A DNA stretch of 64,000 bases, from positions 62,001 through 126,000 of the forward strand of contig JAQUWU010000001.1 in assembly GCA_028692715.1 (NCBI GenBank), given 5' to 3'. The stretch comes from Paludibacter sp. (GTDB lineage Bacteria; Bacteroidota; Bacteroidia; Bacteroidales; Paludibacteraceae). Below, one piece after another: positions 3,449-39,659 of the stretch; within the stretch, counting starts at the first letter, position 1; the number at the start of each line of letters is the position of its first letter. The notes below the pieces were generated by a model. It saw nothing but the letters and a program-made list of their open reading frames with translations. It ran no database searches and had not been told where the DNA came from. Both the position numbers and the translations under genes were made by a program.

Positions 3449-3596
3449 ATTTAAATATATTATCGATAACCAAAACTGTGGTCGAACAACAGAAAACCCT
3501 AAATAAGTAAATAAATTCAAAACATTAATTTTAACTCTTAAGATCATGCAATTCAACTCATAGTCCTTAATTTACTAATAATATAAATCTCATATC

Positions 3597-4781: not shown

Positions 4782-4808
4782 ATAATACTCCAAAATCAAT
4801 ATCATATT

Positions 4809-18566: not shown

Positions 18567-18757
18567 AAAAGAAATAAACTGGAAATAATTTTCTGAGTCT
18601 GTTTAGAAAACCAGAACACATTCTAATGACTTTATTTTAAAACAGCTTAATCAATATTAATCAATTCACTAAAAAACATGAGTATAAAACATAAATTTCT
18701 TTACAAAGTAATTATTTTTTTATTGTTACCATCAGGTCTTTTCTCGCAAACATTTAA
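18563..18757 (+). repeat. duplicated block, copy 2 (CE2 3' remnant + spacer + GH28 leader)
   Basis: Second copy of the block at 16802-16996. It begins with TTGAAAAAGAAATAAACTGG, continues through the same spacer (TTTAGAAAACCAGAACACAT, then TCTAATGA) and runs into the intact GH28 signal peptide. Here the CE2 portion is broken and the GH28 portion functional. Confidence 0.8.
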
Positions 18758-20183
18758 TATTTTGGACTTTGAGGCTAAATCGAATATAAATGTTCTTAGT
18801 ACTGAAGCAATTCAGGCGGCAATAGATAGTTGTAGTGCTGTTGGAGGGGGAACTGTGATTGTACCTGCCGGAACTTATTATTCCGGGACTTTATTCTTAA
18901 AAGACAGGGTAAATATACATTTAAGGTCTGGTGCATTTTTGATTGGTAGTTCAGATCCTAATGACTATCCTCAACTGGATATTAAATTTAAAACTATGTT
19001 CTCTCCGGTAATATCAAATGAAAACTTGAAAGATGCAAAGAAAAAATACAAAGCCTTTTTATTTGCAGAAAATGCGGAGAATATATCAATTACCGGTGAA
19101 GGTACAATTAATGGGAATGGGAATGCTTCATCATTTCAGTTAGGGAATGATGGTTCGTCCAAAGAAAGCATTCAAAGGCCGATTCTGATATTAGCTGTTA
19201 ACTGTAGGAAAGTAAAATTGGAGGATATTAAATTAAAAAATTCGGCATATTGGATGCAAAGTTATTTGGCGTGTGATGATGTACATTTAAAAGGTATCTC
19301 TGTTTATAATCATTGCAACTATAACAATGATGGGATCGATATTGACAGTAAGAATGTCCTGATCGAAAACTGCATTATTGATTCAGACGATGATGGTATT
19401 TGCTTAAAAAGTCATGACAAAGAGCGTTTTTGCGAGAATGTAATAATCCGAAATTGTACGGTTCGATCAAATTGTAATGCCGTTAAGTTAGGAACAGCTT
19501 CTGTGGGCGGTTTTAAAAATATCCTGATCGAGAATATAATTATCAAAAGCGCTTCTGAAAGCACTATCAGAGACTGGCAAAAGATTTGGAATTTTATTGA
19601 CAAACCGAATACCGGTCTTTGTGGAATATCCATTGAGAATGTCGATGGAGGAATTTCTGAAAATATCAAGGTAAATAACATTTGTATGACTGATATGCAA
19701 GCACCTCTTTTTGTAAAATTGGGGAACAGATGTTTGTGTAACACAGGCAAATTAAAAAATATCGAAATTAGTAATCTTACGGCAAAAACCCACAGTAAAA
19801 TAACTGGAAGTATTTCCGGATATCCCGGTAACTATATCGAAAATATTACTTTAAAGAACATATCTATCAATTCATCTGGTGGAGGTACAAAAAAAGATAG
19901 TAAAATCAATTTACAGGAAAATGAAACACTATATCCGGAAGTTAATATGTTCGGAGAGGTTTTACCCTCAAGCGGTTTGTTTATTAGGCATGCAAGAGGA
20001 ATTATAATACAGAATATAGATTTTCAAAATCGAAATTTAGATTTTAGACCCACAATGGTTTTTGATGACGTTAAACAAGGTTATGTCTATCAAGTGAATC
20101 AAATTAAACCATCAGGAAATGCTTCTTTAATAAAACAAAAAGACTGCAAGAATATACATCTTAAATATAAAACAAAAAAGTAA
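18678..20183 (+). CDS. GH28 polygalacturonase-type pectinase
   Basis: Secreted (leader ends GLFSQ). The N-terminal part carries the pectinase signature FNILDFEAKSN...AIQAAIDSCSAVGGGTVIVPAGTYYSGTLFLKD, and the body is a right-handed parallel beta-helix. Catalytic blocks are NNDGIDIDS near residue 215 (NTDG equivalent), DSDDDGICLKS near 236-244 (paired Asp) and CNAVKLGTAS near 265 (GHG/RIK region equivalent). Length (501) is normal for Bacteroidota GH28. The enzyme hydrolyses galacturonic-acid linkages in pectin or rhamnogalacturonan. It directly precedes the corrinoid methyltransferase block, linking pectin attack with methyl-group handling. Confidence 0.92.
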   Translation: MSIKHKFLYKVIIFLLLPSGLFSQTFNILDFEAKSNINVLSTEAIQAAIDSCSAVGGGTVIVPAGTYYSGTLFLKDRVNIHLRSGAFLIGSSDPNDYPQLDIKFKTMFSPVISNENLKDAKKKYKAFLFAENAENISITGEGTINGNGNASSFQLGNDGSSKESIQRPILILAVNCRKVKLEDIKLKNSAYWMQSYLACDDVHLKGISVYNHCNYNNDGIDIDSKNVLIENCIIDSDDDGICLKSHDKERFCENVIIRNCTVRSNCNAVKLGTASVGGFKNILIENIIIKSASESTIRDWQKIWNFIDKPNTGLCGISIENVDGGISENIKVNNICMTDMQAPLFVKLGNRCLCNTGKLKNIEISNLTAKTHSKITGSISGYPGNYIENITLKNISINSSGGGTKKDSKINLQENETLYPEVNMFGEVLPSSGLFIRHARGIIIQNIDFQNRNLDFRPTMVFDDVKQGYVYQVNQIKPSGNASLIKQKDCKNIHLKYKTKK

Positions 20184-20257
20184 ATTATAAACCAATAAGC
20201 ACAAAGAACTATTAATTAGTTCAGACGTATGTACTATAAATCAAACAAAATAAAAAA

Positions 20258-21265
20258 ATGAAAAACAAAAAAATGGAAAATATCCATAAACAATTACAAA
20301 CTCCAAGTACAAACGACGGTAGAATTTTCTTTCATCCCATATTAATGATGCATGCGTCAAAACTAAATGGTCAGACGTATGAAGATTTGATGACCGACTA
20401 TAAATCACTTGTAGCCGCAAATATGAAATGTCTTGAATTATATGATCACGATGCTGTAAGTGTAATATCCGATCCATATCGTGAAACTGCAGCTTTTGGT
20501 GCAAAAATATATTTTGATGGAGACAATTCACCAAGGGCTGATAAACTGATTCATTCAATTGAAGATGTTGATTCTCTTGTAAATCCGGATGTATATAAAT
20601 GCGAACGAACCCTTGATAGAATCAACGGAGTAAAACTATTTCGGGAACTACTGGGAGAAAAATTTCCTATCATTGGTTGGGTAGAAGGACCACTTGCTGA
20701 GGCTGCTGATTTAGCAGGTATGACCGAAATATTAATGAATATGATGATTGAACCGGAAATGGTTCATAAACTCGCAGACAAATGTCTGACTACTGCTAAA
20801 GATTTCGCATTAGCTCAGATAAATGCAGGTGCCAATATTATTGGCGTAGGTGATGCTATTTGCTCGCAAATTTCTGAAGAACTTTATGAAGAATTTGCTT
20901 TCTCTCGTCATAAAGAATTAATCGATTTTATTCATAGTCATGGAGCACTTGTGAAGTTACATATTTGTGGAGATATTAAACATCTACTTCCTTTAATTGC
21001 TCAAGAGGATATTGATATAATTGATGTTGATTGGATGGTAGACATGGCTGATACTCACCAAGTACTGGGAAAGAATGTGGTGCTCTGTGGAAACCTTGAT
21101 CCTGTTGCCGTAATAATGGCTGGAAGTAAAGAACTTATCAAAGAAAAGTATGATGCTATAAAAACATCAATCCCATCTGAAAATTGGATATTGATGGGTG
21201 GGTGTGAGATTCCAATGAATACTCCTACAGAGAACATGACTTTTTTAAGAGAAATTTCTAAATAA
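20258..21265 (+). CDS. UROD-fold corrinoid:cofactor methyltransferase (MtaA/CmuA-like), copy 1
   Basis: A uroporphyrinogen-decarboxylase-fold protein of 335 residues, the length of MtaA/MtbA methyltransferases rather than a heme-pathway HemE. Zinc-type ligands are visible: LHICGD near residue 234 (His-x-Cys) and GGCEIP near 313 (late Cys), matching the H-x-C...C zinc site of methylcobamide:CoM methyltransferases. GWVEGPLAEAADLAG is the typical substrate-pocket loop. In bacteria lacking coenzyme M, members pass methyl groups from corrinoid proteins to tetrahydrofolate or other acceptors, or act on their own methylated substrate. It lies 74 bp after GH28 and before a sugar permease, so it may be in the same transcript. 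Confidence 0.8.
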   Translation: MKNKKMENIHKQLQTPSTNDGRIFFHPILMMHASKLNGQTYEDLMTDYKSLVAANMKCLELYDHDAVSVISDPYRETAAFGAKIYFDGDNSPRADKLIHSIEDVDSLVNPDVYKCERTLDRINGVKLFRELLGEKFPIIGWVEGPLAEAADLAGMTEILMNMMIEPEMVHKLADKCLTTAKDFALAQINAGANIIGVGDAICSQISEELYEEFAFSRHKELIDFIHSHGALVKLHICGDIKHLLPLIAQEDIDIIDVDWMVDMADTHQVLGKNVVLCGNLDPVAVIMAGSKELIKEKYDAIKTSIPSENWILMGGCEIPMNTPTENMTFLREISK

Positions 21266-21332
21266 TGAGAATATATCTTGTGAAAAACATTTTTTCTTCA
21301 AATTTCAAATTCTATTTTTTAACAATATCCTT

Positions 21333-22640
21333 ATGAATAATAAAAAAAATGCGTTACCATTATTAATGATGTTTTTACTCTTTTTTGTTATTGCTTTTGC
21401 TACAAATTTGAATGGTCCATTTGGTAAAATCCTGAAAGAACAATTCGAGTTTAGCAATATGCAATCTCAATTAGGAACAATGATTTTTTTCTTATCATAT
21501 CTCTTTATGGGAATTCCTTCATCATGGTTAATTCGTGCTCAAGGTTATAAGAAAGCAGCCATTATAGCCTTAATAATTGCTGCGGTTGCCACCTTAGGTA
21601 TTTATATGGTAGGCATTATTGCATTAAAAGACCCCGTTTCTAATAAAAATTTAGCTATTTATTTATATTTGGCTTGTAATTTTATATTGGGTGCTGCTAT
21701 GTGCATTCTTAATAATGTTGTAAATCCAATGCTTACTGTATTAGGTTCTAAAAAAGGAGCAAATCAGCGCCTCAATTTTGGGGGTGCATTAAACTCCTTT
21801 GGTGGAACTTTGGCACCTGCTATTGCAGGATTATTAATAGGTTCAGCAGCATCAGGTCAAATATCTATTTCTGCTGTAAATCCACTATTATTCTTAGCGC
21901 TTAGTATTTTTATTTTAGTAAGTATAGGACTGTTCTTTGTTGAAATTCCTGAACCTATTATTGCGAAAAAAATCAAAGGAGAAAAGGATCAACACAGTGC
22001 TTTAAGTTTTCGCCATCTAAAATTTGGCATTATTGCAATCTTTTTTTACGTAGGTTTAGAAGTATCAATACCGAATATCGCTTTTCTTTATATGACTGAC
22101 CCTGTTTCTAGTTCAGGGCTTGCAATTCAAAATGGAGTGGCTGGTGTTATTGTAGGAACTTATTGGCTACTCATGTTAATTGGCCGACTGATTGGGGGTG
22201 CGTTAGGTAAAATATTTTCAAGTCGTCAAATGATAATCACAGTTTCTTCTGTAGCAATATTTTTAATAACAGTTGCAATTCTGATCCCCGAAAATATTTT
22301 AGTTAAAATGCCGGCAATAAACGGCAGTTTTGGAGTTGAATTTTATCTTGTTCCATTTAGTATATTATTGCTTACACTCACTGGTTTGTGTACTTCTGTA
22401 ATGTGGCCGGGTATTTTTAATTTAGCAGTTGATGGATTAGGTAAATACACGAATCAAGGTTCGGGGCTGTTTATGACTATGGCTTTTGGAGGTGGAATAA
22501 TCCCCTTACTTCAAGGTAGGATAGCGGACATAATTGGATTTCAACAAAGTTATATTGTTCCCTTAGCTGCTGCTATAATTATTTTTTTATTTGGTTTTTG
22601 GGGATATAAGAATATAAATTTAAATATACCCATTGAATGA
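21333..22640 (+). CDS. FucP-family sugar MFS permease
   Basis: 435 residues with about 12 hydrophobic helices. The N-terminal helix region (LLLFFVIAFATNLNGPFGKILKEQF) and the later LNFGGALNSFGGTLAPAIAGLL follow the FucP/NanT-like sugar:proton symporter pattern of Bacteroidota. The likely job is uptake across the inner membrane of a monosaccharide released by the glycan locus, such as a hexuronate, fucose or galactose. Its position between the first methyltransferase and the corrinoid protein also allows a methylated sugar as cargo. Substrate cannot be read from the sequence. The following 201-bp gap up to the corrinoid gene shows no coding sequence and no riboswitch that I recognise. Confidence 0.85.
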   Translation: MNNKKNALPLLMMFLLFFVIAFATNLNGPFGKILKEQFEFSNMQSQLGTMIFFLSYLFMGIPSSWLIRAQGYKKAAIIALIIAAVATLGIYMVGIIALKDPVSNKNLAIYLYLACNFILGAAMCILNNVVNPMLTVLGSKKGANQRLNFGGALNSFGGTLAPAIAGLLIGSAASGQISISAVNPLLFLALSIFILVSIGLFFVEIPEPIIAKKIKGEKDQHSALSFRHLKFGIIAIFFYVGLEVSIPNIAFLYMTDPVSSSGLAIQNGVAGVIVGTYWLLMLIGRLIGGALGKIFSSRQMIITVSSVAIFLITVAILIPENILVKMPAINGSFGVEFYLVPFSILLLTLTGLCTSVMWPGIFNLAVDGLGKYTNQGSGLFMTMAFGGGIIPLLQGRIADIIGFQQSYIVPLAAAIIIFLFGFWGYKNINLNIPIE

Positions 22641-22841
22641 TAATGATACAAGCAAATGATTACTCACTCTGATTTATCACTTAGTTCACCAAGTAAGAAA
22701 ATGAAAATCTGTTAGGTGAGTTCATGTGTTAACTAGAAAACAATTATTTCGGTATTTAATGATAATTAAAACCGATTAAATTAAACAGTTTTTTCTGTTG
22801 TACGTATAAACTATTAATAAAAACAAATCACAAAATCTAAA

Positions 22842-23510
22842 ATGAACGAATTATTAGAAAAACTTCTCGAAGTAGTAGAGTTAGGCAAAGCAGATCAAAA
22901 ATCACCATTTCCACCACAACTCAAGGGTCAGGATGGTGCAATGGAAATTACTATTAAAGCTATTGAAACCGGTGTATCACCTCAGGAAATTTTAGAATTA
23001 GCTCTTATTCCGGCAATGGATAAGGTTGGCAAGAAATTTTCGGAGAATAAGATATTTGTACCCCAAATGCTTATGTCAGCACGTGCAATGGGTGCATCTA
23101 TGCTGCAACTGAAACCATTTTTCACTTCAGGTGAAATCAAAACAAAAGGAACATTCATTATTGGTACCGTAAAAGGTGATTTACATGATATTGGGAAAAA
23201 TTTGGTAGCCATGATGGTTGAAGGTTCAGGCTGGTCGGTAATTGACCTTGGTGTTGATGTCCCTGCTGAAAAATATATTCAGGCAGTTAAAGAAAATCCG
23301 GGTGCAATAGTGGCTCTGTCAGCTTTGCTGACAACAACCATGGTAAATATGGGTCAGATTGTTGCCGATATTAAAGCTGAATCTCCTGATACGTTTGTAT
23401 TTATTGGTGGTGCTCCGGTTAACAACGAATTTTGCAAAAAGATTGGAGCTGATGCTTACAGACCGGATCCACAAGGTGTGGTTGAATACCTGAATAAAAT
23501 GGCCTCATAA
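22842..23510 (+). CDS. corrinoid protein (MtaC/MtbC-like)
   Basis: Two-domain corrinoid carrier of 222 residues, the standard size. Residues about 1-95 form the methionine-synthase cap-like helical domain (EILELALIPAMDKVGKKFSENKIFVPQML). Residues 100-220 form the B12-binding Rossmann domain with the DLHDIG motif at 113-118, His115 being the lower cobalt ligand, then SALLTTTM and FIGGAPVNNEF. It accepts a methyl group from an MtaB-type protein and donates it to a UROD-type methyltransferase. All of these partners are encoded within 4 kb. A terminator-like hairpin follows at 23539-23578 and a new promoter at 23606, so it seems to be transcribed separately from the downstream genes. Confidence 0.93.
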   Translation: MNELLEKLLEVVELGKADQKSPFPPQLKGQDGAMEITIKAIETGVSPQEILELALIPAMDKVGKKFSENKIFVPQMLMSARAMGASMLQLKPFFTSGEIKTKGTFIIGTVKGDLHDIGKNLVAMMVEGSGWSVIDLGVDVPAEKYIQAVKENPGAIVALSALLTTTMVNMGQIVADIKAESPDTFVFIGGAPVNNEFCKKIGADAYRPDPQGVVEYLNKMAS

Positions 23511-23538
23511 ACTCACTTTCTCCTTTAATTTTTTATAT

Positions 23539-23578
23539 AAATATTCCATGGCCTTGTTTTCAAAGTCATGGGATATTT
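23539..23578 (+). terminator. terminator-like hairpin after corrinoid gene
   Basis: Arms AAATATTCCATG (23539-23550) and CATGGGATATTT (23567-23578) pair over 12 positions with one mismatch, with a 16-base loop. The hairpin lies 29 bases after the corrinoid protein stop and just before the next promoter. Confidence 0.5.
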
Positions 23579-23586
23579 TATCTGAA

Positions 23587-23613
23587 TTGAATAAAAAAAG
23601 ACTCATATATTTG
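23587..23613 (+). promoter_or_regulatory. Bacteroidota-type promoter for the methyltransferase operon
   Basis: TATATTTG at 23606-23613 matches the -7 element TAnnTTTG, and TTG at 23587-23589 could be the -33 element, although the 16-bp gap is shorter than usual. The predicted start of transcription is about 20-25 bases before the UROD-type gene at 23645. Confidence 0.5.
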
Positions 23614-23644
23614 TATTTCAATATAATAAAATAAATAGTTATAA

Positions 23645-24649
23645 ATGATTAATATGAAAAGTTGGATTAACCAACAATTATCCAACAAAACAAGAATAAG
23701 TATACCAATTATGACCCATCCGGGAATTGAACTAATTGGTAAAAAAGTAATAGACGCAGTTAAGGATGGTGAAGTTCATGCACAAGCTATCAAAAAATTG
23801 GCTGAAGTTTATCCTTCTGCCGCCACAACAGTAATTATGGATCTGACACTCGAAGCCGAGGCATTTGGCTGTCAAATTGAATTTCAGGAAAACGATATGC
23901 CTCACATTCTGGGTCGATTGCTTACATGTGCCGAAGATATTGAAAATTTGAAAGTTCCTGATTTGTATGCAGGTCGTATGCAAGAGTATCTGAAAGCAAA
24001 TAAGTTGACGGTAGAGTTAGGCATTGACAAACCTGTCTTGGCCGGCGTAATAGGACCATTTTCCTTAGCAGGACGGCTTTACGATGTGTCTGAAATTATG
24101 ATGGCTTGTTACATTGAGCCTGATTCTATCATGTTGTTACTCGATAAATGCACCGAATTTATTATAAATTATTGTCGCGAACTAAAACGGATTGGTTGTT
24201 CGGGAGTTGTTGTTGCAGAGCCGGCTGCCGGACTATTGGCCAATGACGATTGCCAGATGTTTTCGTCGGAATATGTAAAACGGTTGGTAGATGAATTGCA
24301 GGATGAAACATTCACAATAGTACTTCACAACTGTGGTAATAGAGGTCATTGTACCGATGCCATGTTGTATACAGGAGCCAATGCCTATCACTTTGGAAAT
24401 GCTATTGATATGGTTGAAACACTGAAGTACTGCCCGAAGGATAAACTAATAATGGGAAATGTGGATCCGGTAGGAGTTATGAAGATGCAGTCCCCCACTG
24501 AAATCAAGGCTTATATCTCGGATTTATTGAAAAGAACATCTGGATTCGATAATTTTGTTCTTTCAACCGGTTGTGATTTACCACCTCACGTTCCTGCCGA
24601 AAATGTTCAGGCATTTTTTGGAGCATTGGATGAATACAACCAAAATTAA
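23645..24649 (+). CDS. UROD-fold corrinoid:cofactor methyltransferase (MtaA-like), copy 2
   Basis: A 334-residue UROD-fold methyltransferase related to, but clearly distinct from, the copy at 20258. Zinc-type ligands are LHNCGNRGH near residue 228 and STGCDLPPHVP near 306, with MTHPGIELIG at the N-terminus. The start may be 23645 or the ATG at 23654. It is the first gene behind the TAnnTTTG promoter and is followed after 43 bp by the MtaB-like gene. This makes it the better candidate for the partner that removes the methyl group from the MtaC-like corrinoid protein. The acceptor, tetrahydrofolate or a thiol, cannot be told from sequence. Confidence 0.82.
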   Translation: MINMKSWINQQLSNKTRISIPIMTHPGIELIGKKVIDAVKDGEVHAQAIKKLAEVYPSAATTVIMDLTLEAEAFGCQIEFQENDMPHILGRLLTCAEDIENLKVPDLYAGRMQEYLKANKLTVELGIDKPVLAGVIGPFSLAGRLYDVSEIMMACYIEPDSIMLLLDKCTEFIINYCRELKRIGCSGVVVAEPAAGLLANDDCQMFSSEYVKRLVDELQDETFTIVLHNCGNRGHCTDAMLYTGANAYHFGNAIDMVETLKYCPKDKLIMGNVDPVGVMKMQSPTEIKAYISDLLKRTSGFDNFVLSTGCDLPPHVPAENVQAFFGALDEYNQN

Positions 24650-24692
24650 AGTTCTCATTTGCTTGATTTCCTAGTTTGTTAAAATCAATAAT

Positions 24693-26069
24693 ATGAAATA
24701 CAAAAGTCTAATTATCAACAATCCCGAAGATTTAATGTTTGGGAAAGCACCAAAACCGGTAAAAACCCGTCGTGGTCTGGAAATTGGTGGCGGTCAGGTA
24801 TATGCCGAACTTAATTTCACATTACCCATAATGAGTATTAATGAGAGCACCTTGAAAGAAGTTTACGAACATTACCGCGGAATTGCTGAAGGTGCGTTGG
24901 AACGAGCATTGCATTTGGAATCGAAAGGTGTGGTACTGGAACTGGAAACATTATTGGAAATGACAAAAACGCCTTCCATTGGTATAGAAATCGTGAAAGT
25001 AATGAACGAAATTTGCGAAAACTACTACCAGAAATACGGATTGAGGTCTGAGATCCGCTTAACACCAAACGATTTGCGTGAGTTTGAGCGTCCGGCTAAA
25101 CAACGGACGTCGCAATATCTTGAACCTATGTTTGAGCTTTTCGAAAAAGGTGCATTGGTAGGTGGCGATTTATTGTCCATTGAAAGTACAGGTGGTAAAG
25201 AAGTTTCGGATGATGCGTTGATGAACTGCGACATAAAAACCATTATGTTTGCTTTGTCAGTACTTGGAGTACGTGATATGCAGTTTTTGTGGAAGAAAAT
25301 TGTCGACGTAGCAAACAAAAACGGTAAAATTGCAGCCGGAGATTCAGCCTGCGGCTTTGCAAATACGGCAATGGTATTGGCAGAAAAGAAATATATTCCG
25401 AAGGTTTTTGCAGCTTTGGTTCGTGTTATTTCAGTTGTTCGTTCAATCGTTGCTATGGAAGAAGGTGCCATTGGTCCGGATAAAGATTGTGGTTACGAAG
25501 GTCCATTCCTGAAAGCCATCACAGGCATTCCAATTTCTATGGAAGGAAAAACGGCGGCCTGTGCACATTTGAGTCCAATTGGAAACATTGCTTCAGCTTG
25601 TGCCGATTTGTGGAGCAACGAATCGGTTCAAAACATCAAATTATTGTCAGGCATGGCTCCAACAGCCTATTTGGAACAATTGGAATATGATGCCCGATTG
25701 ATGAATGAAGCATTGCGTGCCGGTAAACTGCATTGTAATATTCTACAACAATTATTAGTTTCATCGGATATTTATACCGATCCGCAAGCTTTAATTTTGG
25801 CACCAGAAAACGTTATTCGCATTTCGCGTGAATTGATTAAAGGAGATTCGTATGTGGCAAATGCTAAAAATGGAGCATTGGTGACAATTGATATTATTGA
25901 AGAAGCAGTTGCATCAGGAAAATTGAAGCTTTCGGAGATGGAAATTGGCTACCTTCCTTATATGCGGGAAGAATTGGAAAGTATTCCCGAAAGCGAAAGT
26001 GATTTCGTGGAAATGATGTTACCACTGGTGGATCAAAGTAAATTTACATTAGCCGAATACGGATTATAA
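24693..26069 (+). CDS. mtaB: methanol:corrinoid methyltransferase (MtaB-like)
   Basis: 458 residues, the length of Methanosarcina MtaB, and collinear with it. The zinc ligands reported for M. barkeri MtaB, as I recall them, are Glu164, Cys220 and Cys269. Here Glu164 lies in LLSIESTGG, Cys220 in AGDSACGFANTA, and a Cys at 266 in GPDKDCGYEGP, so two are at the same number and one is three residues off. Other family blocks are EIGGGQVYAELNFTLP and GKTAACAHLSPIGN. MtaB splits methanol and moves its methyl group to Co(I) of the corrinoid partner. Substrates other than methanol are possible, but the intact zinc site and length favour methanol. Confidence 0.88.
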   Translation: MKYKSLIINNPEDLMFGKAPKPVKTRRGLEIGGGQVYAELNFTLPIMSINESTLKEVYEHYRGIAEGALERALHLESKGVVLELETLLEMTKTPSIGIEIVKVMNEICENYYQKYGLRSEIRLTPNDLREFERPAKQRTSQYLEPMFELFEKGALVGGDLLSIESTGGKEVSDDALMNCDIKTIMFALSVLGVRDMQFLWKKIVDVANKNGKIAAGDSACGFANTAMVLAEKKYIPKVFAALVRVISVVRSIVAMEEGAIGPDKDCGYEGPFLKAITGIPISMEGKTAACAHLSPIGNIASACADLWSNESVQNIKLLSGMAPTAYLEQLEYDARLMNEALRAGKLHCNILQQLLVSSDIYTDPQALILAPENVIRISRELIKGDSYVANAKNGALVTIDIIEEAVASGKLKLSEMEIGYLPYMREELESIPESESDFVEMMLPLVDQSKFTLAEYGL

Positions 26070-26150
26070 AACACAAGTGGCAGATAAAGCAATGATTAGA
26101 AAAGTTCACAATAGGAATAAGTTCTGTTTCTATTGTGAACTATTGTGTTT
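26069..26150 (+). promoter_or_regulatory. nested inverted repeat between mtaB and the CobW-type gene
   Basis: Inner arms AGTTCACAATAG (26103-26114) and CTATTGTGAACT (26130-26141) are a perfect 12-bp inverted repeat with a 15-base loop. Outer arms AAACACAA (26069-26076) and TTGTGTTT (26143-26150) also pair. There is no U-tract suited to simple termination, so the element may be an attenuator, an mRNA-stability structure or an operator. Confidence 0.55.
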
Positions 26151-26173
26151 AAAAAGTCTATTAACTAAATCTT

Positions 26174-27097
26174 ATGAAAAAAATACCCGTAAATATAATC
26201 ACAGGATTTTTGGGTGCCGGCAAAACAACTGCTATTATCCGGCTGCTCAAGCAGAAAACATCTGACGAACAATGGGCAGTGATTGTTAATGAATTTGGCA
26301 AGATTTCTATCGATAGTCAAACACTAAAATCTTTCGCAGAAAAAGGAAGCATTTATAACATTTCGGGTGGTTGTATTTGTTGCTCCGCAAAAGCTTATTT
26401 TCGTGAGAATCTTACAGAAATAATAAATTCAGGCAATTTTTCCAGAATTATTATCGAGCCAAGCGGTTTGGGTGGAATAGATATGGTTTCTGAAGCTGTA
26501 GAATCGAATCCAAATTTAGTTTTAATGCCTAAAATATGTTTGGTGGATATTCACATGGTAGATATTGTTCGAATTCACGAATTGCCTATCTATCGGATTC
26601 AAATTATCAAATCTGAGATTATTGTATTTACTAAATGTGATTTATTGCTCGATAAATTTCGTGAGGCTGCACTAAAGAGCAAATTTAGTGAATTATACCC
26701 CGGCAAAGAAATTCGAGAGTACTCAACTATTTCCACGCTATTAAATGTTTATAATGCTATTTACCAACAAAAAAGTCATTTCCGACTGGCTACTTTGGCA
26801 AGTGAAGAATTTGAGGATAGTAATTTTCATAAAAAGATATTTGTTTTTGATTTCGAAACTACTTTTAATCCTGAAAAATTAACGGGTATTTTCAGTAAAT
26901 ATCCCGAAATCCTAAGAGCTAAAGGGCACATTAGAAGCAAGAATAATTGGCTGAGGATTAATTATACGCTATCTTATTCAAATTATGAGCTTTGTAAGAT
27001 CAAGGAGCAAAATGAGATTGTCGTAATTACAGAAAAAGTACCCGATTATTTTTTTGAGCAACTTAATATGGGAATTCAAAATGCCATTATTAAATAG
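26174..27097 (+). CDS. CobW/G3E-family GTPase, probable metallochaperone
   Basis: G3E P-loop GTPase with Walker A GFLGAGKTT at residues 11-19, the family metal-binding motif GGCICC near 66-71, EPSGLGG, and TKCD near 152 as guanine specificity motif. Length 307 is typical. These GTPases deliver Zn, Co or other metals to client enzymes, or act in cobalamin metabolism. Placed between the zinc-dependent MtaB-like enzyme and the corrinoid reactivase, it may load zinc into the methyltransferases or help with the corrinoid. The family and motifs are clear; the client is inferred from gene order only. Confidence 0.85.
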   Translation: MKKIPVNIITGFLGAGKTTAIIRLLKQKTSDEQWAVIVNEFGKISIDSQTLKSFAEKGSIYNISGGCICCSAKAYFRENLTEIINSGNFSRIIIEPSGLGGIDMVSEAVESNPNLVLMPKICLVDIHMVDIVRIHELPIYRIQIIKSEIIVFTKCDLLLDKFREAALKSKFSELYPGKEIREYSTISTLLNVYNAIYQQKSHFRLATLASEEFEDSNFHKKIFVFDFETTFNPEKLTGIFSKYPEILRAKGHIRSKNNWLRINYTLSYSNYELCKIKEQNEIVVITEKVPDYFFEQLNMGIQNAIIK

Positions 27098-27139
27098 ATT
27101 TCACAACTTATATTTATAAACAAATTCCTCACTCCTTCA

Positions 27140-28627
27140 ATGAAAAGACACAATATCAGTCTACAACCTTTAGGTAAAGAATTGCAAGTAAATGATAAAA
27201 CACCCTTGATTGATGTTTTACATGAATTTGGAATTGAATTTCCATGTGGCGGCAAAGGAGCATGTGGAAAGTGTAAAGTTAAATTGCTTAATGGTTGCAT
27301 AGAAGTTTCTGAAATTCATCAACAAAAAATAGATCAATTAGGTCTTTCACCTGAATGGCGATTGGCTTGTTACAGCAATTGTACCAGCGATATCACATTA
27401 GAAATTGACCAGTTTAACCATTTGATTTTAGCAGATGAAAGCGAATTTGAATTTGTTCAGGAATCAGGATTTGGTATTGCAATTGATTTAGGCACAACAA
27501 CTTTAGTTGCTCAATTGGTAGATTTATCCACTTCAAAAGTATTAGCTGTGGAAACCGCGCTTAATCCGCAGGTAAAATTTGGTGCTGATCTGATTTCTCG
27601 TATTCAGGCTTGTCTGGATGGACATGCAGCCGAAATGACCCGGCTTATTCGTTTCTCAATTGGAAATATGATTGAATTGCTGTTGCAAAAACAAAATATT
27701 GAAATAAAACGGATTTCTATAGTTGGAAATACCGTTATGCAACTTATTTTCAGTAATTGTGATGTCAGTCCATTAGCACAATATCCGTTTAACACAAGTA
27801 ATCTCGGTCCCAAGTTGTTTAGTGCGGAGTACCTTGGTTGGAATTTTCAAGTTGCTGAAAATGTAATGTTCTATCCTTCCATTGGTAGTTTTGTGGGTAG
27901 TGATATTTTAGCTGGCATAGCGGCTACAGGACTACATCTGAGCGAGAATTATACGGCACTGATTGATTTAGGTACAAACGGTGAAATTGTGTTGGGTAAC
28001 AAAAAACAGATAGTTTGTGCATCTACTGCTGCAGGACCGGCATTTGAAGGCACCAATATTTCAATGGGAATGCGGGCGGTGACCGGCGCCATCTCGTCAA
28101 TAGAACTAATTGACAATGAATTATCTGCCAATGTAATTGGGAATGTTGCACCAAAAGGAATCTGCGGCAGCGCGTTGGTGGACGCTATTGCAATTTTCAG
28201 GGAACTGGATTTAATAGGACTGTTTGGCGAAATTAATTCAGGGGAAACCAGTCTTTGTATTAATGCAAATATTAGTTTGACACAAAAAGACATCAATGAA
28301 TTTCAACTGGCTAAAGCCGCTATTGCAGCCGGATTAAAGATTTTATGCAAGATTATTTTCATTCAGTTATCTGATATACAGACAATTTATATCGCCGGAG
28401 GTTTTGGTAATTATATCAATGTTCATAACATTGTGCAAACAGGAATGATAGAATTGCCTAAAGAAAAAATTCGTAAAATGGGTAATACTGCTTTAATAGG
28501 TGCTAAAATGTTCTTATTTTCCAATGATGAAACAGTGAAAGACATTCTTTCTAAAACAGAACACATTAATCTGGAAAGTGACCCGAATTTTCAGGATATT
28601 TACGTTGACAAAATGCTTTTCAATTAG
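27140..28627 (+). CDS. corrinoid-protein reductive activator (2Fe-2S / ASKHA, RACo/RamA-type)
   Basis: The N-terminal plant-type 2Fe-2S ferredoxin domain has Cys36-x5-Cys42-x2-Cys45 and a fourth Cys at 77 (RLACYSNC). A linker leads to an ASKHA ATPase domain (GIAIDLGTTTLVAQL near 112, IDLGTNGEIVLG, AGPAFEG, CGSALVDAIA) of the DUF4445 type. RACo-type proteins use ATP and a low-potential electron to return accidentally oxidised Co(II) corrinoids to active Co(I). Its client should be the MtaC-like protein at 22842. Length 495 is shorter than RACo (about 630) and many activators, so the linker domain is reduced or missing. Confidence 0.88.
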   Translation: MKRHNISLQPLGKELQVNDKTPLIDVLHEFGIEFPCGGKGACGKCKVKLLNGCIEVSEIHQQKIDQLGLSPEWRLACYSNCTSDITLEIDQFNHLILADESEFEFVQESGFGIAIDLGTTTLVAQLVDLSTSKVLAVETALNPQVKFGADLISRIQACLDGHAAEMTRLIRFSIGNMIELLLQKQNIEIKRISIVGNTVMQLIFSNCDVSPLAQYPFNTSNLGPKLFSAEYLGWNFQVAENVMFYPSIGSFVGSDILAGIAATGLHLSENYTALIDLGTNGEIVLGNKKQIVCASTAAGPAFEGTNISMGMRAVTGAISSIELIDNELSANVIGNVAPKGICGSALVDAIAIFRELDLIGLFGEINSGETSLCINANISLTQKDINEFQLAKAAIAAGLKILCKIIFIQLSDIQTIYIAGGFGNYINVHNIVQTGMIELPKEKIRKMGNTALIGAKMFLFSNDETVKDILSKTEHINLESDPNFQDIYVDKMLFN

Positions 28628-28653
28628 GAGTTATTTATACAGAATCAATTAAA

Positions 28654-29358
28654 ATGAAAACATATATTCTCCAATTTTCCGATTTAACTCTAAACAAAGA
28701 CGAGATATATCTTAATCTCGGATATGGCGGTCAAACTCCGGATCAGCAATTTGTTGAGATGATTGATCAAATGCTTGAATATATTAGCGGTTTTTGTGCT
28801 CCACAAGCTGGATATACTATGCTGTCAGGAAATATTCCTGACAAAAATTATTTAGAAATAAACGATATTCGAATAAAGGTTGGTCCGGTTATTACCAGAT
28901 ACCTTAATAATTCCACCCAATTTGCTGTATTTCTTGCCTCTGCTGGTATTGAATTTGATCAATATCTGGAGCAGCTCAAAGCTATTGGCGATATTGTTTC
29001 AGAGTTTTTGGCATACTCAATTGGAACAGAAATAGCCGAAGCGACCGTTCGTTTTGTTACGGATAGAATCACTGAAGAGGCGGATAAATCTGGATTTAAA
29101 ATAACGCATTCGTACAGTCCGGGGCATTGTAGTTGGCATGTGCGGGAGCAACAACACCTATTCTCACTTTTACCCCTAAAATCATGTGGAGTGGTATTGA
29201 ATGAATCAAGTTTGATGCATCCAGTCAAATCAGTTAGTGGTATTATCGGATTGGGGAAAAATATAAAACTAACTCCTCATGGCTGCGAAATATGTGGATT
29301 GAAAACTTGTTTTAAAAGGAATGAAGGTATGAAAACGCACGCTAAATTAATCATATAG
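28654..29358 (+). CDS. MetH-activation-domain-like protein
   Basis: A 234-residue stand-alone protein resembling the AdoMet-binding activation domain of cobalamin-dependent methionine synthase. Helical N-terminal half, then ATVRFVTDRITEEADKSGFK, and SYSPGHCSWHVREQQHLFSLL in the place of the RYSPGY/ACP motif of MetH, followed by LNESSLMHPVKSVSGIIGLG. It ends with a Cys cluster (CEICGLKTCFK). Free-standing versions occur beside corrinoid methyltransferase genes in acetogens and related anaerobes, where reductive methylation or re-activation is proposed. It starts 26 bp after the ASKHA activator, so the two are probably co-expressed. Confidence 0.8.
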   Translation: MKTYILQFSDLTLNKDEIYLNLGYGGQTPDQQFVEMIDQMLEYISGFCAPQAGYTMLSGNIPDKNYLEINDIRIKVGPVITRYLNNSTQFAVFLASAGIEFDQYLEQLKAIGDIVSEFLAYSIGTEIAEATVRFVTDRITEEADKSGFKITHSYSPGHCSWHVREQQHLFSLLPLKSCGVVLNESSLMHPVKSVSGIIGLGKNIKLTPHGCEICGLKTCFKRNEGMKTHAKLII

Positions 29359-29637
29359 ACTGAAAAATCATGATTAGTTAAGGAATAAATATACTCTACC
29401 GATAGTGACTTGAATTTAGTTTAATACCGAAAAAACGGGTTGATAATTTTATAGTACTTTATATAAACTGTAAATGTTTGAAAAGCAACTTTTATTAGTC
29501 TACTAAATCGGTAAAAGCTATTTTGTAAATGCTAAAGTATTATTCTCCTAGCGATTTTAATAGTGTTTTAGACAAGACAGACTACAACAAAAAATATGTT
29601 AATATTGCGAAAGGTTTAATAAAGATAAATGTTTATT

Positions 29638-30756
29638 ATGACTGTTCAAGAATTAAAATCAGCTTTCACTTTTGAATATAATATCGAACCTGATAGTATT
29701 TACTTTGCCTCTGGACGCATTAACCTTATCGGTGAATGTATTGCTAGGTTAGACGATTCAATTTTTCCAACTGTCTTAAGTTATGGTATCTATTTATTGC
29801 TTCGCAAGAACAACGATAAATGTATCAAATTTTGGTCATTAAATGAACCGGAAGCAATTAATTTGGAGGTAAATAAACTAATACAGAGGCCTGTTAATTC
29901 TTGGATAAAACACCCACTTAATGTTTTTAATCAGCTAATAAACAGAGGAATTGAGCTGACCTATGGATACGATATGCTTTTCTGGGGCAATATACCAACT
30001 GGGGTGGAATTATCAGCAACAGAAGGGTTGGAGTTAATAACCACTTTCGCACTAAGGGATCAACTTAATGAGTCCAATGAAAACAAAACCTCATCAAATT
30101 TCATTCATAATAACAAACATTATTTTTCTTTTATAAACTGGGATATCATACAGTTGAATCCGCCAATAGAGATACATGAAAGGATTACGTCAGAGATGAT
30201 TGATGTCAAAATTGTCATATCAAATACGCACACACCTCATAGATTTAATACAGCTCCTTATTATCAACGTATATCAGAATGCAAATTGGTCTTTGAATAT
30301 CTGGACAAAATCAAGCCGTTACACGACTTGGATGAATTATCTGAAGATGAATTTAATTCTATGGTCGTGACCATTGACAATCCAACAGCTATAAAAGCTG
30401 TTTATCATATTATTAGTGAAGTACATCGGACAAAAAAAGCTGCAATAGCATTGAAGGAAGGTAACTTAACGTTATTTGGAATGCTAATGAATGCTTCACA
30501 CGAGTCTTTACGTGAGAATTTAGAGATTGTAAGTCCTGAAGTAGATTACATGGTTGCACAAGCATGGAGTATTGATGGAGTAATTGGCTCGCGTATGACT
30601 GGTTGCGGTTTAGGAGGTTGTACGATTTCGTTAGTAAAAGAAGAAGCAATTGATATATTTATAGAAAAGGTAGGTGCAGCCTATGAATCACAAACAGGTA
30701 TCAAACCTGAATTCTATATCGCAGAAATTGGGGATAGTGCTTGTAAGCTAAAATAA
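29638..30756 (+). CDS. galactokinase-like GHMP protein lacking catalytic segment
   Basis: The C-terminal half is plainly galactokinase-like: THTPH...YYQRISECK, ALKEGNLTLFGMLMNASHESLRENLEIVSPEVD, RMTGCGLGGCTISL and the final TGIKPEFYIAEIG. The N-terminal half keeps ASGRINLIGE but the sugar-binding GEHxDYNGG is replaced by GECIARLDDS, and the ATP loop PxGAGLSSSA by PTGVELSATEG. The stretch that normally follows, with the catalytic Asp in CGxMDQ, is absent: FALRDQLNE leads almost directly to KHYFSFINWD. It is therefore most likely not a kinase; a sugar-sensing or scaffold role, as in yeast Gal3-type proteins, or early decay are the alternatives. ATG 29638 preferred to 29629. Confidence 0.8.
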   Translation: MTVQELKSAFTFEYNIEPDSIYFASGRINLIGECIARLDDSIFPTVLSYGIYLLLRKNNDKCIKFWSLNEPEAINLEVNKLIQRPVNSWIKHPLNVFNQLINRGIELTYGYDMLFWGNIPTGVELSATEGLELITTFALRDQLNESNENKTSSNFIHNNKHYFSFINWDIIQLNPPIEIHERITSEMIDVKIVISNTHTPHRFNTAPYYQRISECKLVFEYLDKIKPLHDLDELSEDEFNSMVVTIDNPTAIKAVYHIISEVHRTKKAAIALKEGNLTLFGMLMNASHESLRENLEIVSPEVDYMVAQAWSIDGVIGSRMTGCGLGGCTISLVKEEAIDIFIEKVGAAYESQTGIKPEFYIAEIGDSACKLK

Positions 30757-32234: not shown

Positions 32235-32277
32235 TTTTGACTGCAATAGTATCCGAAAAGTGATTATATTTGCAGTC
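32235..32277 (+). promoter_or_regulatory. abiE promoter overlapped by second 39-bp palindrome
   Basis: GACTGCAATAGTA (32239-32251) and TATATTTGCAGTC (32265-32277) repeat the palindrome at 32071 with three mismatches between arms and keep the TCCGAA centre. The right arm contains TATATTTG (32265-32272), a -7 TAnnTTTG box, and TTTTG at 32235-32239 supplies -33. A repressor on this site would cover both promoter elements. The antitoxin ATG follows at 32299. Confidence 0.75.
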
Positions 32278-32298
32278 AGAATATATCAAACATGTAAA

Positions 32299-33114
32299 AT
32301 GAATACTGCTTCTACCATAAAAGAATGGATAAATAAGCTCCAACAAAATGGCAAGCTTTACTTTTCTATGGAGCAAGTTACAGAAGCCTTTCCGAACTTG
32401 CAGTCTACAGGTATTCGTAGCGCACTCACCCGACTTTCATCAAAAAACAGCATTGTCTCTGTTTGGAAAGGATTTTATGTGATTGTACCAACATCATATA
32501 CCGCCAAAGGTATACTACCTCCGGTTATGTATATCGACCATTTAATGAAGCATATCCAACGTCCTTATTACGTTGGATTACTCAATGCTGCTGCATTCTA
32601 TGGCGCTGCCCTTCAGCAGCCGCAGGTATTCTCGGTAATTATTCAACAGCCCACGCTTCGCGACAATAACAAAAAAAATGTTCGGTTACAATTTGTGGCA
32701 CGTCGGAATTTTCCGGTAGAAGAATTACTCGAAACACGAAAAACTCAAACCGGCTACGTCAAAATATCCTCCCCTACTCTTACGGCCGCAGATATTATTC
32801 AATATGAGAAAGAAATTGGAGGATTAAATAGAGCATGTACAGTATTGAACGACCTGACAGAGTTGCTTGATTTTACAAAAACTCCGGATAGCTTTTTCGA
32901 CACTGTTAGTACCGCAACAATTCAACGTCTGGGCTACTTGTTGGAAAATGTCGTGGAGTCTCCTGATGTAGCAAATCAGCTATACGAAAAAGCACTAAAA
33001 GCCAACTGTAGTTTTCAGACCATTCCCCTCAAAATTGGCAAATTGGTCGAAGAAAAAACAACAGATAAAAAGTGGAAAATTATAATTAATACTGAAATTG
33101 AAATTGATGAGTGA
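32299..33114 (+). CDS. AbiEi-type antitoxin (type IV toxin-antitoxin)
   Basis: ATG 32299 is chosen because the -7 box ends at 32272; the frame extends to 32260 but that start would lie inside the promoter. The protein (271 residues) has an N-terminal winged-helix (AFPNLQSTGIRSALTRLSSKNSIVSVWKGFYVIVP) and a C-terminal AbiEi-like domain (LTAADIIQYEKEIGGLNRACTVLNDL). AbiEi proteins repress their own operon and counter the AbiEii nucleotidyltransferase. The partner gene follows after 45 bp and two palindromes sit upstream, matching the known autoregulation scheme. Likely a phage-defence or stability module. Confidence 0.85.
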   Translation: MNTASTIKEWINKLQQNGKLYFSMEQVTEAFPNLQSTGIRSALTRLSSKNSIVSVWKGFYVIVPTSYTAKGILPPVMYIDHLMKHIQRPYYVGLLNAAAFYGAALQQPQVFSVIIQQPTLRDNNKKNVRLQFVARRNFPVEELLETRKTQTGYVKISSPTLTAADIIQYEKEIGGLNRACTVLNDLTELLDFTKTPDSFFDTVSTATIQRLGYLLENVVESPDVANQLYEKALKANCSFQTIPLKIGKLVEEKTTDKKWKIIINTEIEIDE

Positions 33115-33159
33115 GTTGAGAAGTCGAGTAATAAAAAATCAACTATTTAAAATAAACAA

Positions 33160-33954
33160 ATGATACCGGTATCAGCTATTGAAGAGTGGAGAAATAAAGT
33201 GCCATGGCAAACAAACGAACAAGTCGAACAAGACTTGATTATTTGTCGTGGACTAACAGAAATATTTAAAGATGAATTCCTGGCACAATCCTTGGCATTC
33301 CGTGGAGGTACAGCTCTGCACAAGCTATATCTTTCACCTCAACCACGTTATTCCGAGGATATCGATTTAGTGCAAATCAGTGCCGGACCAATAAAACCAA
33401 TCATAGATAAACTCCGTGATGAAGTATTATCTTTCCTTGGTGTTCCGGTTGTAAAGCAAAAGGCCAACAACAATACATTAATTTTCCGCTTTGAATCCGA
33501 AATTGCTCCGGTTATGCCTATTCGGTTAAAGGTTGAAACAAATTGCAGGGAGCATTTTTCGATATTAGGCTGGTCAAAATTCCCATTTTCCGTAGAGAGC
33601 GAATGGTACAACGATGCTTGCGAAATCACCACCTATCCGCTAGAAGAATTGTTGGGCACAAAACTCCGGGCACTCTACCAACGTCGTAAAGGGCGTGACC
33701 TATTCGACCTGTACACAGCCATAACTCAAAAGGACTTGAATTTCGACCAAATACTTACTTGTTATCGCGAATACATGAACTTTGTTGTCGGCAGCAATGT
33801 ACCCACACAAAAAGAGTTCCTGATGAATATGGAAGAAAAAATGTTAGATACTGAATTCCTGGGCGACACTCAATTATTGCTACGCAATGGGGAAGGATAT
33901 AATCCGCAAATTGCATATCAAGTAGTAAAAGAAAATTTGTTGGAGAAAATCTAG
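33160..33954 (+). CDS. AbiEii-type nucleotidyltransferase toxin
   Basis: A 264-residue nucleotidyltransferase-fold protein. FRGGTALHKLYLSPQPRYSEDIDLV holds the GG(T/S)...DxD signature with the two metal-binding Asp in SEDIDL; EELLGTKLRALYQRRKGRDLFDLYT is the conserved helical block with the Lys and Asp of AbiEii/AbiGii toxins. Such toxins transfer nucleotides to RNA, tRNA in the best-studied cases, and cause growth arrest during phage infection. Paired with the AbiEi-like gene upstream. All key residues seem intact, so an active toxin is likely. Confidence 0.88.
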   Translation: MIPVSAIEEWRNKVPWQTNEQVEQDLIICRGLTEIFKDEFLAQSLAFRGGTALHKLYLSPQPRYSEDIDLVQISAGPIKPIIDKLRDEVLSFLGVPVVKQKANNNTLIFRFESEIAPVMPIRLKVETNCREHFSILGWSKFPFSVESEWYNDACEITTYPLEELLGTKLRALYQRRKGRDLFDLYTAITQKDLNFDQILTCYREYMNFVVGSNVPTQKEFLMNMEEKMLDTEFLGDTQLLLRNGEGYNPQIAYQVVKENLLEKI

Positions 33955-34028
33955 TTAACACTAGTGTATTACATAAAACGGGATTCTATATTTCACATGA
34001 ACTGAATAGATTTCACTGAGATTTTAAA

Positions 34029-35555
34029 ATGGAAAAGAAAATTAATACACATAAATTGCCTTCAGGATGGCTTCTTGTAAAATTAGAAGATATCTCAAAA
34101 CAAATTACAGATGGTTCACATAATCCACCAAGGAATATGGGGTCTGGTATTCCCATGCTTAGTGCCCGAAATATTGAAAACAATAGAATTTCATTTGAAG
34201 AAGTTAGATATATAGGTGAAGAGGATTTTAAGTATGAAAACCAAAAAACCAAAATTGAAGTAGGTGATGTTTTATTGACAATAGTTGGCACAATAGGTAG
34301 GTGCGCTTATATTTCTGAGAACATTGACACAAAATTCACTTTACAGAGAAGTGTTGCTGCTATAAAGCCGTTAATTAGTGGAAAGTATTTGATGTACTAC
34401 ATCCAATCTCCAAACTTTCAAAAACAACTAATAGACAATGCAAAAGGGACAGCTCAAAAAGGGATATATTTAAAAAAATTAAGTAGTTTAGAATTACCAC
34501 TTCCTCCTTTAAATGAACAAAATCGTATCGTATCTAAAATAGAAGAACTTTTCAGTGAATTAGACCATGCTGAATTAGGATTAAAGAAAGCTCAAATACA
34601 ATTAGATATTAATAGGCAAGTTTTATTGAAAAATGCATTTATAGGAAAATTATTATCAAAAGATTCAGATTTAAAATATAATTGGAGAAGAATAAATTTA
34701 GGAGATGTTGTTGTCAAAAAGAGTCAAAAGGCAAAACCAGATAATAATTCTGAATTAAAGTTTATAGGGCTAGAATGTATTAATGCTAATAGTCTTAAGT
34801 TAAGTTCAACTTTTTTATTCAAAAATTATTCTAGTACTGCCAGTTACTTTAAAAAAGGCGATATTATCTATTCTAGGATGAGACCTAATCTAAACAAAGT
34901 ATATAAAGTTGAATTTGATGGGGTATGTTCAGGTGAATTTTTTGTTTTGGAGGGTCTCGATATTATAAATACGGATTTCCTAAAATACTTGCTGCATTCA
35001 AGTGAATTTGTCAGGTACGCAACAAAAAAAGCTGCTGGAGATAGACCTCGCTTATCATTTAAAGATTTTTGCGATTATCAATTTTATATTCCCAAAATTG
35101 AAGAGCAAAACTTAATTGTCCAAGAGATAGAATCACGTATAACCTTAATGGATAATTTAAATGATTCAATTACTATTGGACTTAAGAAAATTGTAACATT
35201 ACAAGATGCTATTCTCAAAAATGCTTTTGAGGGAAGTCTCATACCTCAAAATTCCAATGATGAGTCTGCATTCAATTTGTTAAGGAAAATTACGACACAA
35301 AAGGATGTTTATTTAACAAAAAGGGACAGTGATTTAAAAAATAAAATAAAACCTAATATGAAGCAAAACTTGATCAATACTATTGAAAATAACTTTTCAG
35401 AGACTCCATTTACTTTTGAAGAACTCTCAAAAGTAACTTCAATGTCTTACGATGACATAAAAGAACAATTATATGAGCTTCTTGACAAAGAAAGCAAATT
35501 AACTTCTATTTTTTCTAAAGATGCTAAATGTATTATTTTTAAATATAAAAAATGA
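34029..35555 (+). CDS. hsdS: type I restriction-modification specificity subunit (HsdS) with C-terminal extension
   Basis: Two target-recognition domains separated by conserved coiled-coil helices: TRD1 about residues 1-165 (GWLLVKLEDISKQITDGSHNPP), helix LPPLNEQNRIVSKIEELFSELD, TRD2 about 215-370 (NWRRINLGDVV), and second helix IPKIEEQNLIVQEIESRI. Beyond the usual end there are about 90 residues (PFTFEELSKVTSMSYDDIKEQLYELLDKES) that look like a small winged helix. HsdS sets the DNA sequence recognised by HsdM. Here it heads an operon whose next gene, an AAA ATPase, overlaps its stop codon (ATGA at 35552), with HsdM two genes further on. Confidence 0.9.
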   Translation: MEKKINTHKLPSGWLLVKLEDISKQITDGSHNPPRNMGSGIPMLSARNIENNRISFEEVRYIGEEDFKYENQKTKIEVGDVLLTIVGTIGRCAYISENIDTKFTLQRSVAAIKPLISGKYLMYYIQSPNFQKQLIDNAKGTAQKGIYLKKLSSLELPLPPLNEQNRIVSKIEELFSELDHAELGLKKAQIQLDINRQVLLKNAFIGKLLSKDSDLKYNWRRINLGDVVVKKSQKAKPDNNSELKFIGLECINANSLKLSSTFLFKNYSSTASYFKKGDIIYSRMRPNLNKVYKVEFDGVCSGEFFVLEGLDIINTDFLKYLLHSSEFVRYATKKAAGDRPRLSFKDFCDYQFYIPKIEEQNLIVQEIESRITLMDNLNDSITIGLKKIVTLQDAILKNAFEGSLIPQNSNDESAFNLLRKITTQKDVYLTKRDSDLKNKIKPNMKQNLINTIENNFSETPFTFEELSKVTSMSYDDIKEQLYELLDKESKLTSIFSKDAKCIIFKYKK

Positions 35556-37102: not shown

Positions 37103-37104
37103 AT

Positions 37105-39632: not shown

Positions 39633-39659
39633 CGTTATTTTATTGATTTTAAATCTAGC

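Follow-up and report, generated by a model that had tools for sequence, protein, structure and literature searches.

What is a methanol-type corrinoid methyl-transfer system doing directly behind glycan genes in a member of the Bacteroidota? The question is raised by a 64,000-nt stretch of the Paludibacter sp. genome (assembly GCA_028692715.1, contig JAQUWU010000001.1, positions 62,001 to 126,000; hereafter the window), in which nine genes, all on the + strand (window 18678-29358), run in the order GH28-UROD1-MFS-MtaC-UROD2-MtaB-CobW-RACo-MetHact. The explanation that we favour, and regard as probable though well short of certain, is that this run contains a methanol:corrinoid methyl-transfer operon which, in a Paludibacter-like anaerobe, has been brought under a glycan operon and delivers its methyl group to the one-carbon pool. 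A sequence-only reading of the window had proposed that a Bacteroidota genome carries a methanol-type corrinoid operon downstream of a GH28 gene, and profile matches bear out both this proposal and the family named for each of the same-strand genes. Every gene that it listed is present, but the two UROD genes are not adjacent as it had them, with the MFS permease and MtaC lying between them. The features of the run and of its downstream edge are:

18678-20183, + strand: GH28-family enzyme, first gene of the run (PF00295, 62.5 bits; NF049898, 252 bits against a cut-off of 500)
20258-21265, + strand: UROD1, MtaA-type zinc methyltransferase, candidate second methyl acceptor enzyme (PF01208, 198.1 bits; H235-x-C237...C316)
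21333-22640, + strand: MFS sugar permease of the GluP/NagP/FucP group (PF07690, 77.8 bits)
22641-22841, + strand: 201-nt gap 5' of mtaC, without the operator and TAnnTTTG element of relatives (matrix score -23; no -33/-7 match)
22842-23510, + strand: MtaC-like corrinoid protein (PF02310, B12-binding, 82.9 bits; PF02607, B12-binding_2, 61.8 bits; D-x-H-x-x-G)
23645-24649, + strand: UROD2, MtaA-type zinc methyltransferase, candidate methyltransferase 2 (MT2) (PF01208, 187.1 bits; H228-x-C230...C310)
24693-26069, + strand: MtaB, methanol:corrinoid methyltransferase (PF12176, 543.8 bits; PDB 2i2x, E = 2.9e-90; E164/C220/C266)
26103-26141, + strand: 17-pair stem-loop in the mtaB-cobW gap, scored terminator-like, possible attenuator or processing site
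26174-27097, + strand: CobW/COG0523-type GTPase, probable metallochaperone or corrinoid helper (PF02492, 120.9 bits; GGCICC)
27140-28627, + strand: RACo-type 2Fe-2S/ASKHA reductive activator of corrinoid protein (RACo_C_ter PF14574, 212.5 bits; Raco_middle PF17651, 146.8 bits; Fer2, 30 bits; PF00111; PDB 3zyy, E = 1.3e-67)
28654-29358, + strand: stand-alone MetH activation-domain-like protein, MetHact (Met_synt_B12 PF02965, 35.4 bits over part of the profile)
29629-30756, + strand: divergent galactokinase-like GHMP kinase, operon membership uncertain (PF08544; PRK05322, 268 bits against a cut-off of 385)

Identity of the corrinoid block

The PF12176 match spans MtaB over profile positions 3-460 of 460, far above the curated cut-off of 25 bits, although the stricter NCBIfam MtaB_Meth cut-off was not reached (433.8 versus 720). 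It shares 39% identity with the Methanosarcina barkeri protein (2i2x), and its residues E164, C220 and C266 align with E164, C220 and C269 of that structure, which we take to be the zinc ligands; all three positions are invariant across the 82 rows of the alignment. No further MtaB match occurs in the genome (4.85 Mb, 122 contigs). From these matches we infer that methanol is the likely substrate, and on sequence grounds the methanol half is a well-supported representative of a known kind, present in a host group where it was not expected.

The partner proteins carry the motifs of their families at more divergent scores. The D-x-H-x-x-G motif is present in 75 of 75 MtaC-group proteins, in the window as DLHDIG, and we call the window protein MtaC-like because it scored 112 and 121 bits against MtaC equivalog models with cut-offs of 420 and 450 (best model MtgC_2, 193 versus 370). 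UROD1 and UROD2 share 28% identity and fall into separate clades (support 1.00 each); the H-x-C...C zinc triad occurs in 16 of 17 members of the UROD1 group and 31 of 32 of the UROD2 group, and in both window proteins, and UROD2 aligns to the motifs of the methylcobalamin:CoM methyltransferase 4ay7. As neither reached the cut-offs of curated MtaA/MtbA models (UROD1 102-147 bits, UROD2 116-143 bits, cut-offs 235-600), we label both MtaA-like rather than MtaA. RACo carries C-x5-C-x2-C, with its 2Fe-2S and ASKHA domains both detected, and the MFS permease fell below the cut-off of every curated model (NagP 143, GluP 132, FucP 89 bits). The UROD1-MFS pairing recurs elsewhere: in genome G194, at locus L093, a UROD1 orthologue (48%) is followed by an MFS permease 74% identical to that of the window.

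Compared with the MtaABC systems of Methanosarcina and methanol-using acetogens (2i2x, 4ay7), the window shares the MtaB family with its ligand residues and length, a corrinoid protein and an HxC...C UROD-fold methyltransferase, but differs in having a Bacteroidota host without acetyl-CoA synthase, two MtaA-like genes and glycan genes upstream, and in that the AraC-type switch of its relatives was not found. The RACo/AcsV activators of acetogens (3zyy) share the 2Fe-2S, middle and ASKHA domains, whereas the window RACo is shorter (495 aa versus a 631-aa chain) and lies in a methanol block with no acetyl-CoA synthase. GH28, a sugar permease and upstream same-strand GH92, SASA and CE2-type genes recall Bacteroidota polysaccharide utilisation loci; unlike these, the window holds a corrinoid methyltransferase system, and a scan of 20 of its proteins gave no match of SusC/SusD type. 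The sequence-only reading knew of no described Bacteroidota version, and none was found in the accessible text of the literature searched, which was open-access only.

Distribution and putative control of MtaB blocks

The block is not peculiar to the window genome, as related stretches occur in many Bacteroidota. A scan of named genomes gave 585 such stretches, of which the best 80, many of them cut by contig ends, were kept for locus counts; 72 of these are labelled Bacteroidota. In the 82-row MtaB tree the window lies among Paludibacter-type Bacteroidota rows, nearest to locus L010 (95% identity), and within the same family MtaB was found in 7 of 300 genomes, all of one genus. Titles of carriers include Candidatus Symbiothrix and Tannerella bins, presumably termite-gut lineages, as well as Draconibacterium aestuarii, Sunxiuqinia indica and Labilibacter sediminis, three strains with blocks of the AraC type described below. 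Bacteroidia loci repeatedly combine MtaC, MtaB, CobW and RACo; MtaC was found at 59 of the 80 loci, RACo at 32, the CobW cluster at 30 and MetHact at 23. UROD1-type or UROD2-type genes also stand near MtaB in the Calditrichota and Ignavibacteria loci L076 and L077.

Many of these loci have a switch of their own. A conserved 40-nt site (consensus aATGTGAATATaGCATCaAAAnTAGTAAAAATtGnTGTAG; hereafter the operator) precedes mtaC or mtaB in 35 of the 80 loci, and a divergent AraC-type gene, so labelled by eye from its sequence, is present in 34. The operator is followed in 19 of 27 upstream regions examined by TAnnTTTG, which we take to be the Bacteroidetes promoter element; of the twelve rows printed, six are positive and all six have the element 28 nt downstream. 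Matrix scores of the 35 sites range from 32.6 to ~57, against a maximum of 7.6 in 3 million bases of model background.

The window locus showed no such switch. The best operator score was -23 in the gap 5' of mtaC and 4.3 in the whole window, and no homologue of the AraC-type gene was found in the window, to which the search was restricted (the rest of the genome was not searched). Neither a Bacteroidetes-type promoter (-33/-7 consensus) nor a terminator-like site was found in this gap (201 nt, compared with 74 nt for GH28-UROD1, 67 nt for UROD1-MFS and 26-134 nt from mtaC onward). A close relative, L131 (MtaC 95%), has the operator with 0 mismatches together with the divergent AraC-type gene, and L009, L010 and L011 also keep both. 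The flank could be read in six of the seven same-genus carriers: the switch is retained in four of them and missing from the other two, the window and L060. At L060 the AraC-type gene was not found, the best operator score was 1.1, and the block (MtaC-MetHact-MtaB-CobW-CobW-UROD, one strand, gaps below 120 nt) stands behind glycan genes: a protein with a motif that we take, by eye, to be GH3-like, then a GH2-like protein and a further protein, each with a CBM6-like region. A 351-aa frame and an aldose-epimerase-domain protein lie downstream. With the window and L060, the genus has at least two cases of a methanol block within or after a run of glycan genes, and the two offer a direct test of coupling. 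Because the switch was not found and GH28-UROD1-MFS lies upstream, the window block is probably co-transcribed with the glycan genes.

Two weak operator-like sites were recorded and are not relied on: one at window 29595-29634 (score 3.0, ~0.2 expected by chance), at the start of the galactokinase-like gene that begins 270 nt past the block end, and a degenerate one at L093:2977-3016 (G194; score -1.5), after the UROD1-MFS pair and near a contig end. When the window and the loci L010, L011, L013 and L022 were scanned for riboswitches with Rfam, two tRNAs were all that passed the gathering scores.

Proposed methyl transfer, the suggested pectin link and alternative explanations

In the explanation that we favour, the zinc enzyme MtaB would transfer the methyl group from methanol onto the cob(I)amide carried by MtaC, and UROD2, perhaps also UROD1, would hand it to a cellular acceptor, which could be tetrahydrofolate or else homocysteine or another thiol. 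RACo and MetHact would re-reduce oxidised corrinoid, CobW may serve as a metal or corrinoid helper, and the methyl group would enter the one-carbon pool (MetH, MetF). Many relatives presumably turn the block on through the AraC-type regulator and operator, whereas in the window it would be used while plant cell wall is eaten. The genes, their motifs and distribution, the lack of an acetyl-CoA synthase match and the missing switch are observed; the acceptor, what the regulator does, transcription together with the glycan genes, and an origin of the methanol in pectin are inferred.

The one-carbon route was followed in a hand-chosen set of 31 carriers (the Paludibacter genome itself and the genomes of 30 of the 80 loci). 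Acetyl-CoA synthase (PF03598) was found in none of the 31, which rules out an acetogenic methanol pathway, since without this enzyme the methyl group cannot reach acetate by the Wood-Ljungdahl route; MTHFR was found in 29. Pterin-binding PF00809 matches number two in 28 genomes, one in G308 and three, with fragments, in G303 and G315. As no MtrH-type MT2 is apparent among these matches, which were assigned as FolP-like or MetH-like by frame length, the UROD-fold proteins are the candidates for this step. The zinc of MtaA activates a thiol, and the MtaA-like triad of the window proteins thus makes homocysteine a possible acceptor besides tetrahydrofolate; coenzyme M is an unlikely one. The UROD1/UROD2 cluster lies near MtaB in just 11 of the 80 loci, many of which are contig-cut, so that these proteins are no more than candidates for the acceptor enzyme.

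The pectin half of the sequence-only reading fared less well. It took the GH28 protein for a polygalacturonase, but the nearest curated model is the rhamnogalacturonidase BT4146 (NF049898), at a score below cut-off, and the window protein has NC where 5olp has the GH of the GHG motif, so that a histidine presumably catalytic in GH28 polygalacturonases is replaced. With 15 GH28 matches and 7 matches to pectin methylesterase in its genome, this organism could plausibly release methanol from pectin. A general link between pectin and MtaB did not hold up, as a homologue of the window GH28 was found at 0 of the 80 other MtaB loci (tblastn, 1e-10; several loci short) and methylesterase does not track MtaB. 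The reading had stated that absence of the block from relatives that keep pectin genes would speak against it, and in the genus methylesterase is equally common without MtaB (26 of 41 genomes versus 4 of 7 MtaB carriers, p = 1), an outcome that by this criterion speaks against an obligate link. The same holds in the family (170 of 293 others versus 4 of 7, p = 1), in a comparison that takes two 300-genome draws, each with all seven carriers, as the same set. A general pectin link through methylesterase is therefore ruled out. Among the 31 carriers, a set with no matched background, GH28 is present in 30 and methylesterase in 16. The pectin half is a local arrangement.

These counts weigh against our preferred explanation, as does the scarcity of UROD1/UROD2 genes near MtaB, and further observations add to them. 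The GH28-MtaB adjacency was seen in the window genome only, across a junction that falls inside a single contig, the assembly being a draft with 122 contigs and 5.34% contamination; the stem-loop at 26103-26141 could split the transcript; and the gap 5' of mtaC holds one 9-of-12 match to a sigma-70-type pattern (22814-22843), so that, with only two promoter patterns searched, a promoter there is possible. Much of this would suit a chance neighbourhood, with an autonomous methanol block beside a separate GH28-UROD1-MFS unit and a gene order without functional link, and 15 GH28 matches in one genome make such an adjacency not very unlikely; that many relatives have their own AraC-type switch also speaks for this account. 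We nonetheless consider chance an unlikely account, if one to be taken seriously: the switch was not found here, the genes share one strand across a gap without a Bacteroidetes-type promoter match or terminator-like site, UROD1 is itself MtaA-type, and L060 provides a second glycan-embedded block. The missing switch and the L060 case suggest that the GH28 arrangement is more than accidental.

The same junction could also have been made during assembly, if the contig joins a GH28 locus to the methanol block of a related strain. The contamination estimate, the AraC-type gene plus operator that four other same-genus carriers have at this place, and the somewhat lower third-position G+C on the GH28 side (0.22-0.28 versus 0.28-0.36) speak for a chimera, but the G+C difference is small (seven other window genes measured span 0.26-0.31), the gap contains no N, and L060 independently lacks the switch; we give this account very little credence. 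It is also quite improbable, in our judgement, that the methyl donor is something other than free methanol, such as the O-methyl groups of sugars set free through the glycan genes, in which case MtaB or UROD1 would act as demethylase. This idea draws on MtaC-UROD2-MetHact cores that stand without MtaB beside GH2, GH29, GH106 and RhaT genes with an HxC...H UROD, one of them in the Paludibacter genome itself. Against it, MtaB matches the methanol family and the M. barkeri protein near full length with the three ligand residues kept, and the UROD1 triad is MtaA-type; its own HxC...C residues rule UROD1 out as an HxC...H-type protein.

Consumption of pectin-derived methanol is commonly ascribed to methanogens and acetogens. 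If widespread Bacteroidota MtaB blocks work without acetyl-CoA synthase, fibre degraders could take part of this methyl flux, which bears on methane formation, and the data hint that bacteria with such blocks recycle plant cell-wall methyl groups. Methanol from pectin is treated as food for methanogens in PMC6411164, and pectin is named as a methanol source in PMC12203004.

Related modules without MtaB

Of 393 genomes from the order, 22 have UROD2-clade genes (threshold 1e-60) and 15 have UROD1 orthologues; both counts include the Paludibacter genome. Some lie in modules that have no MtaB. On contig C12 of the same genome (G000:C12:44000-56000, locus L112) the order is SSF-URODx-RhaT-MtaC (62%)-UROD2' (55%)-MetHact-GH2 with a malectin domain, and at L115:4370-14918, on a 5.26-Mb single contig, it is RhaT-URODx-GH29 fucosidase-MtaC-UROD2-MetHact-GH106 rhamnosidase, a candidate sugar demethylation operon by gene content. 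One clade (support 0.95) unites the types URODx, URODx2, c6 and L122u; among 34 rows of these types the triad is HxC...H in 23, HxC...N in 5 and something else in 6.

Across 121 loci including the window, MtaC and an MT2-type UROD lie within 6 kb of each other in 27, of which 11 have MtaB and 16 do not. A gene resembling the HxC...H-type seeds is present at 8 of the 16 loci without MtaB versus 3 of the 11 with it, counts that include the non-independent same-genus sets L169/L172, L125/L127 and L166-L168. The other 8 MtaB-less loci show no HxC...H-type gene, which argues against a simple rule. At L122 a UROD1 orthologue stands beside an HxC...H-type UROD, and some UROD1 orthologues are near GH127, apiosidase-like, GH92, GH31 or alpha-amylase genes while others are not. 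GH-type proteins make up 7 of 18 UROD1 neighbours scanned (7 of 10 in one set, 0 of 8 in another), a lead rather than a test, as the 18 were hand-picked, 17 of them from a list of 51.

Around UROD2, enrichment of GH proteins among the families listed was not significant (7 of 67 flanking versus 2 of 62 control proteins, p = 0.17). Dropped before this count were 13 of 80 target proteins (near-duplicates L158, L171, L172 and L175) and 11 of 73 control proteins (L188, L189 and L192); L163, which has no anchor frame, was left out, L186 had no control protein, and controls bearing the peptidoglycan-related NamZ and glucosaminidase domains were kept out of the GH tally. RhaA, RhaT and a DUF5703 protein were among the controls as well, which speaks against a glycan link, although a DUF5703 protein was in the target set too.

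We tentatively propose, as a possibility that we hold somewhat less likely than its negation, that anaerobic Bacteroidota have a glycan-linked corrinoid family with a shared core (MtaC-like protein, HxC...C UROD and MetHact-like protein) and an exchangeable demethylase, either MtaB or a sugar-O-demethylating HxC...H UROD, feeding the one-carbon pool. Substrates of the HxC...H enzymes would then be, for example, O-methyl fucose, rhamnose, xylose or uronate. If this is true, corrinoid-dependent sugar demethylation, of which no description was found in the accessible open-access text, is a new reaction class in glycan breakdown, and the Paludibacter genome holds both forms, in the window and on C12. 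The MtaB-less modules give a testable answer to how anaerobes handle O-methylated plant sugars, and the pattern of exchangeable corrinoid modules beside glycan genes, while not proven, is the most interesting lead to come from this locus.

At L170:9293-13090 and L171:9550-13347, a UROD2-clade gene adjoins a 924-aa protein that is probably the fucose pyrophosphorylase-domain member of the set. Elsewhere in the window, three tandem related proteins of 376-396 aa lie at 2318-5999, the one scanned giving only a sub-threshold match to a C-terminal sorting domain. Downstream of the block, at 32260-41153, an AbiEi-type antitoxin gene is followed by nucleotidyltransferase-like and restriction-modification-like genes (named by eye beyond AbiEi) in an arrangement that resembles a defence island.

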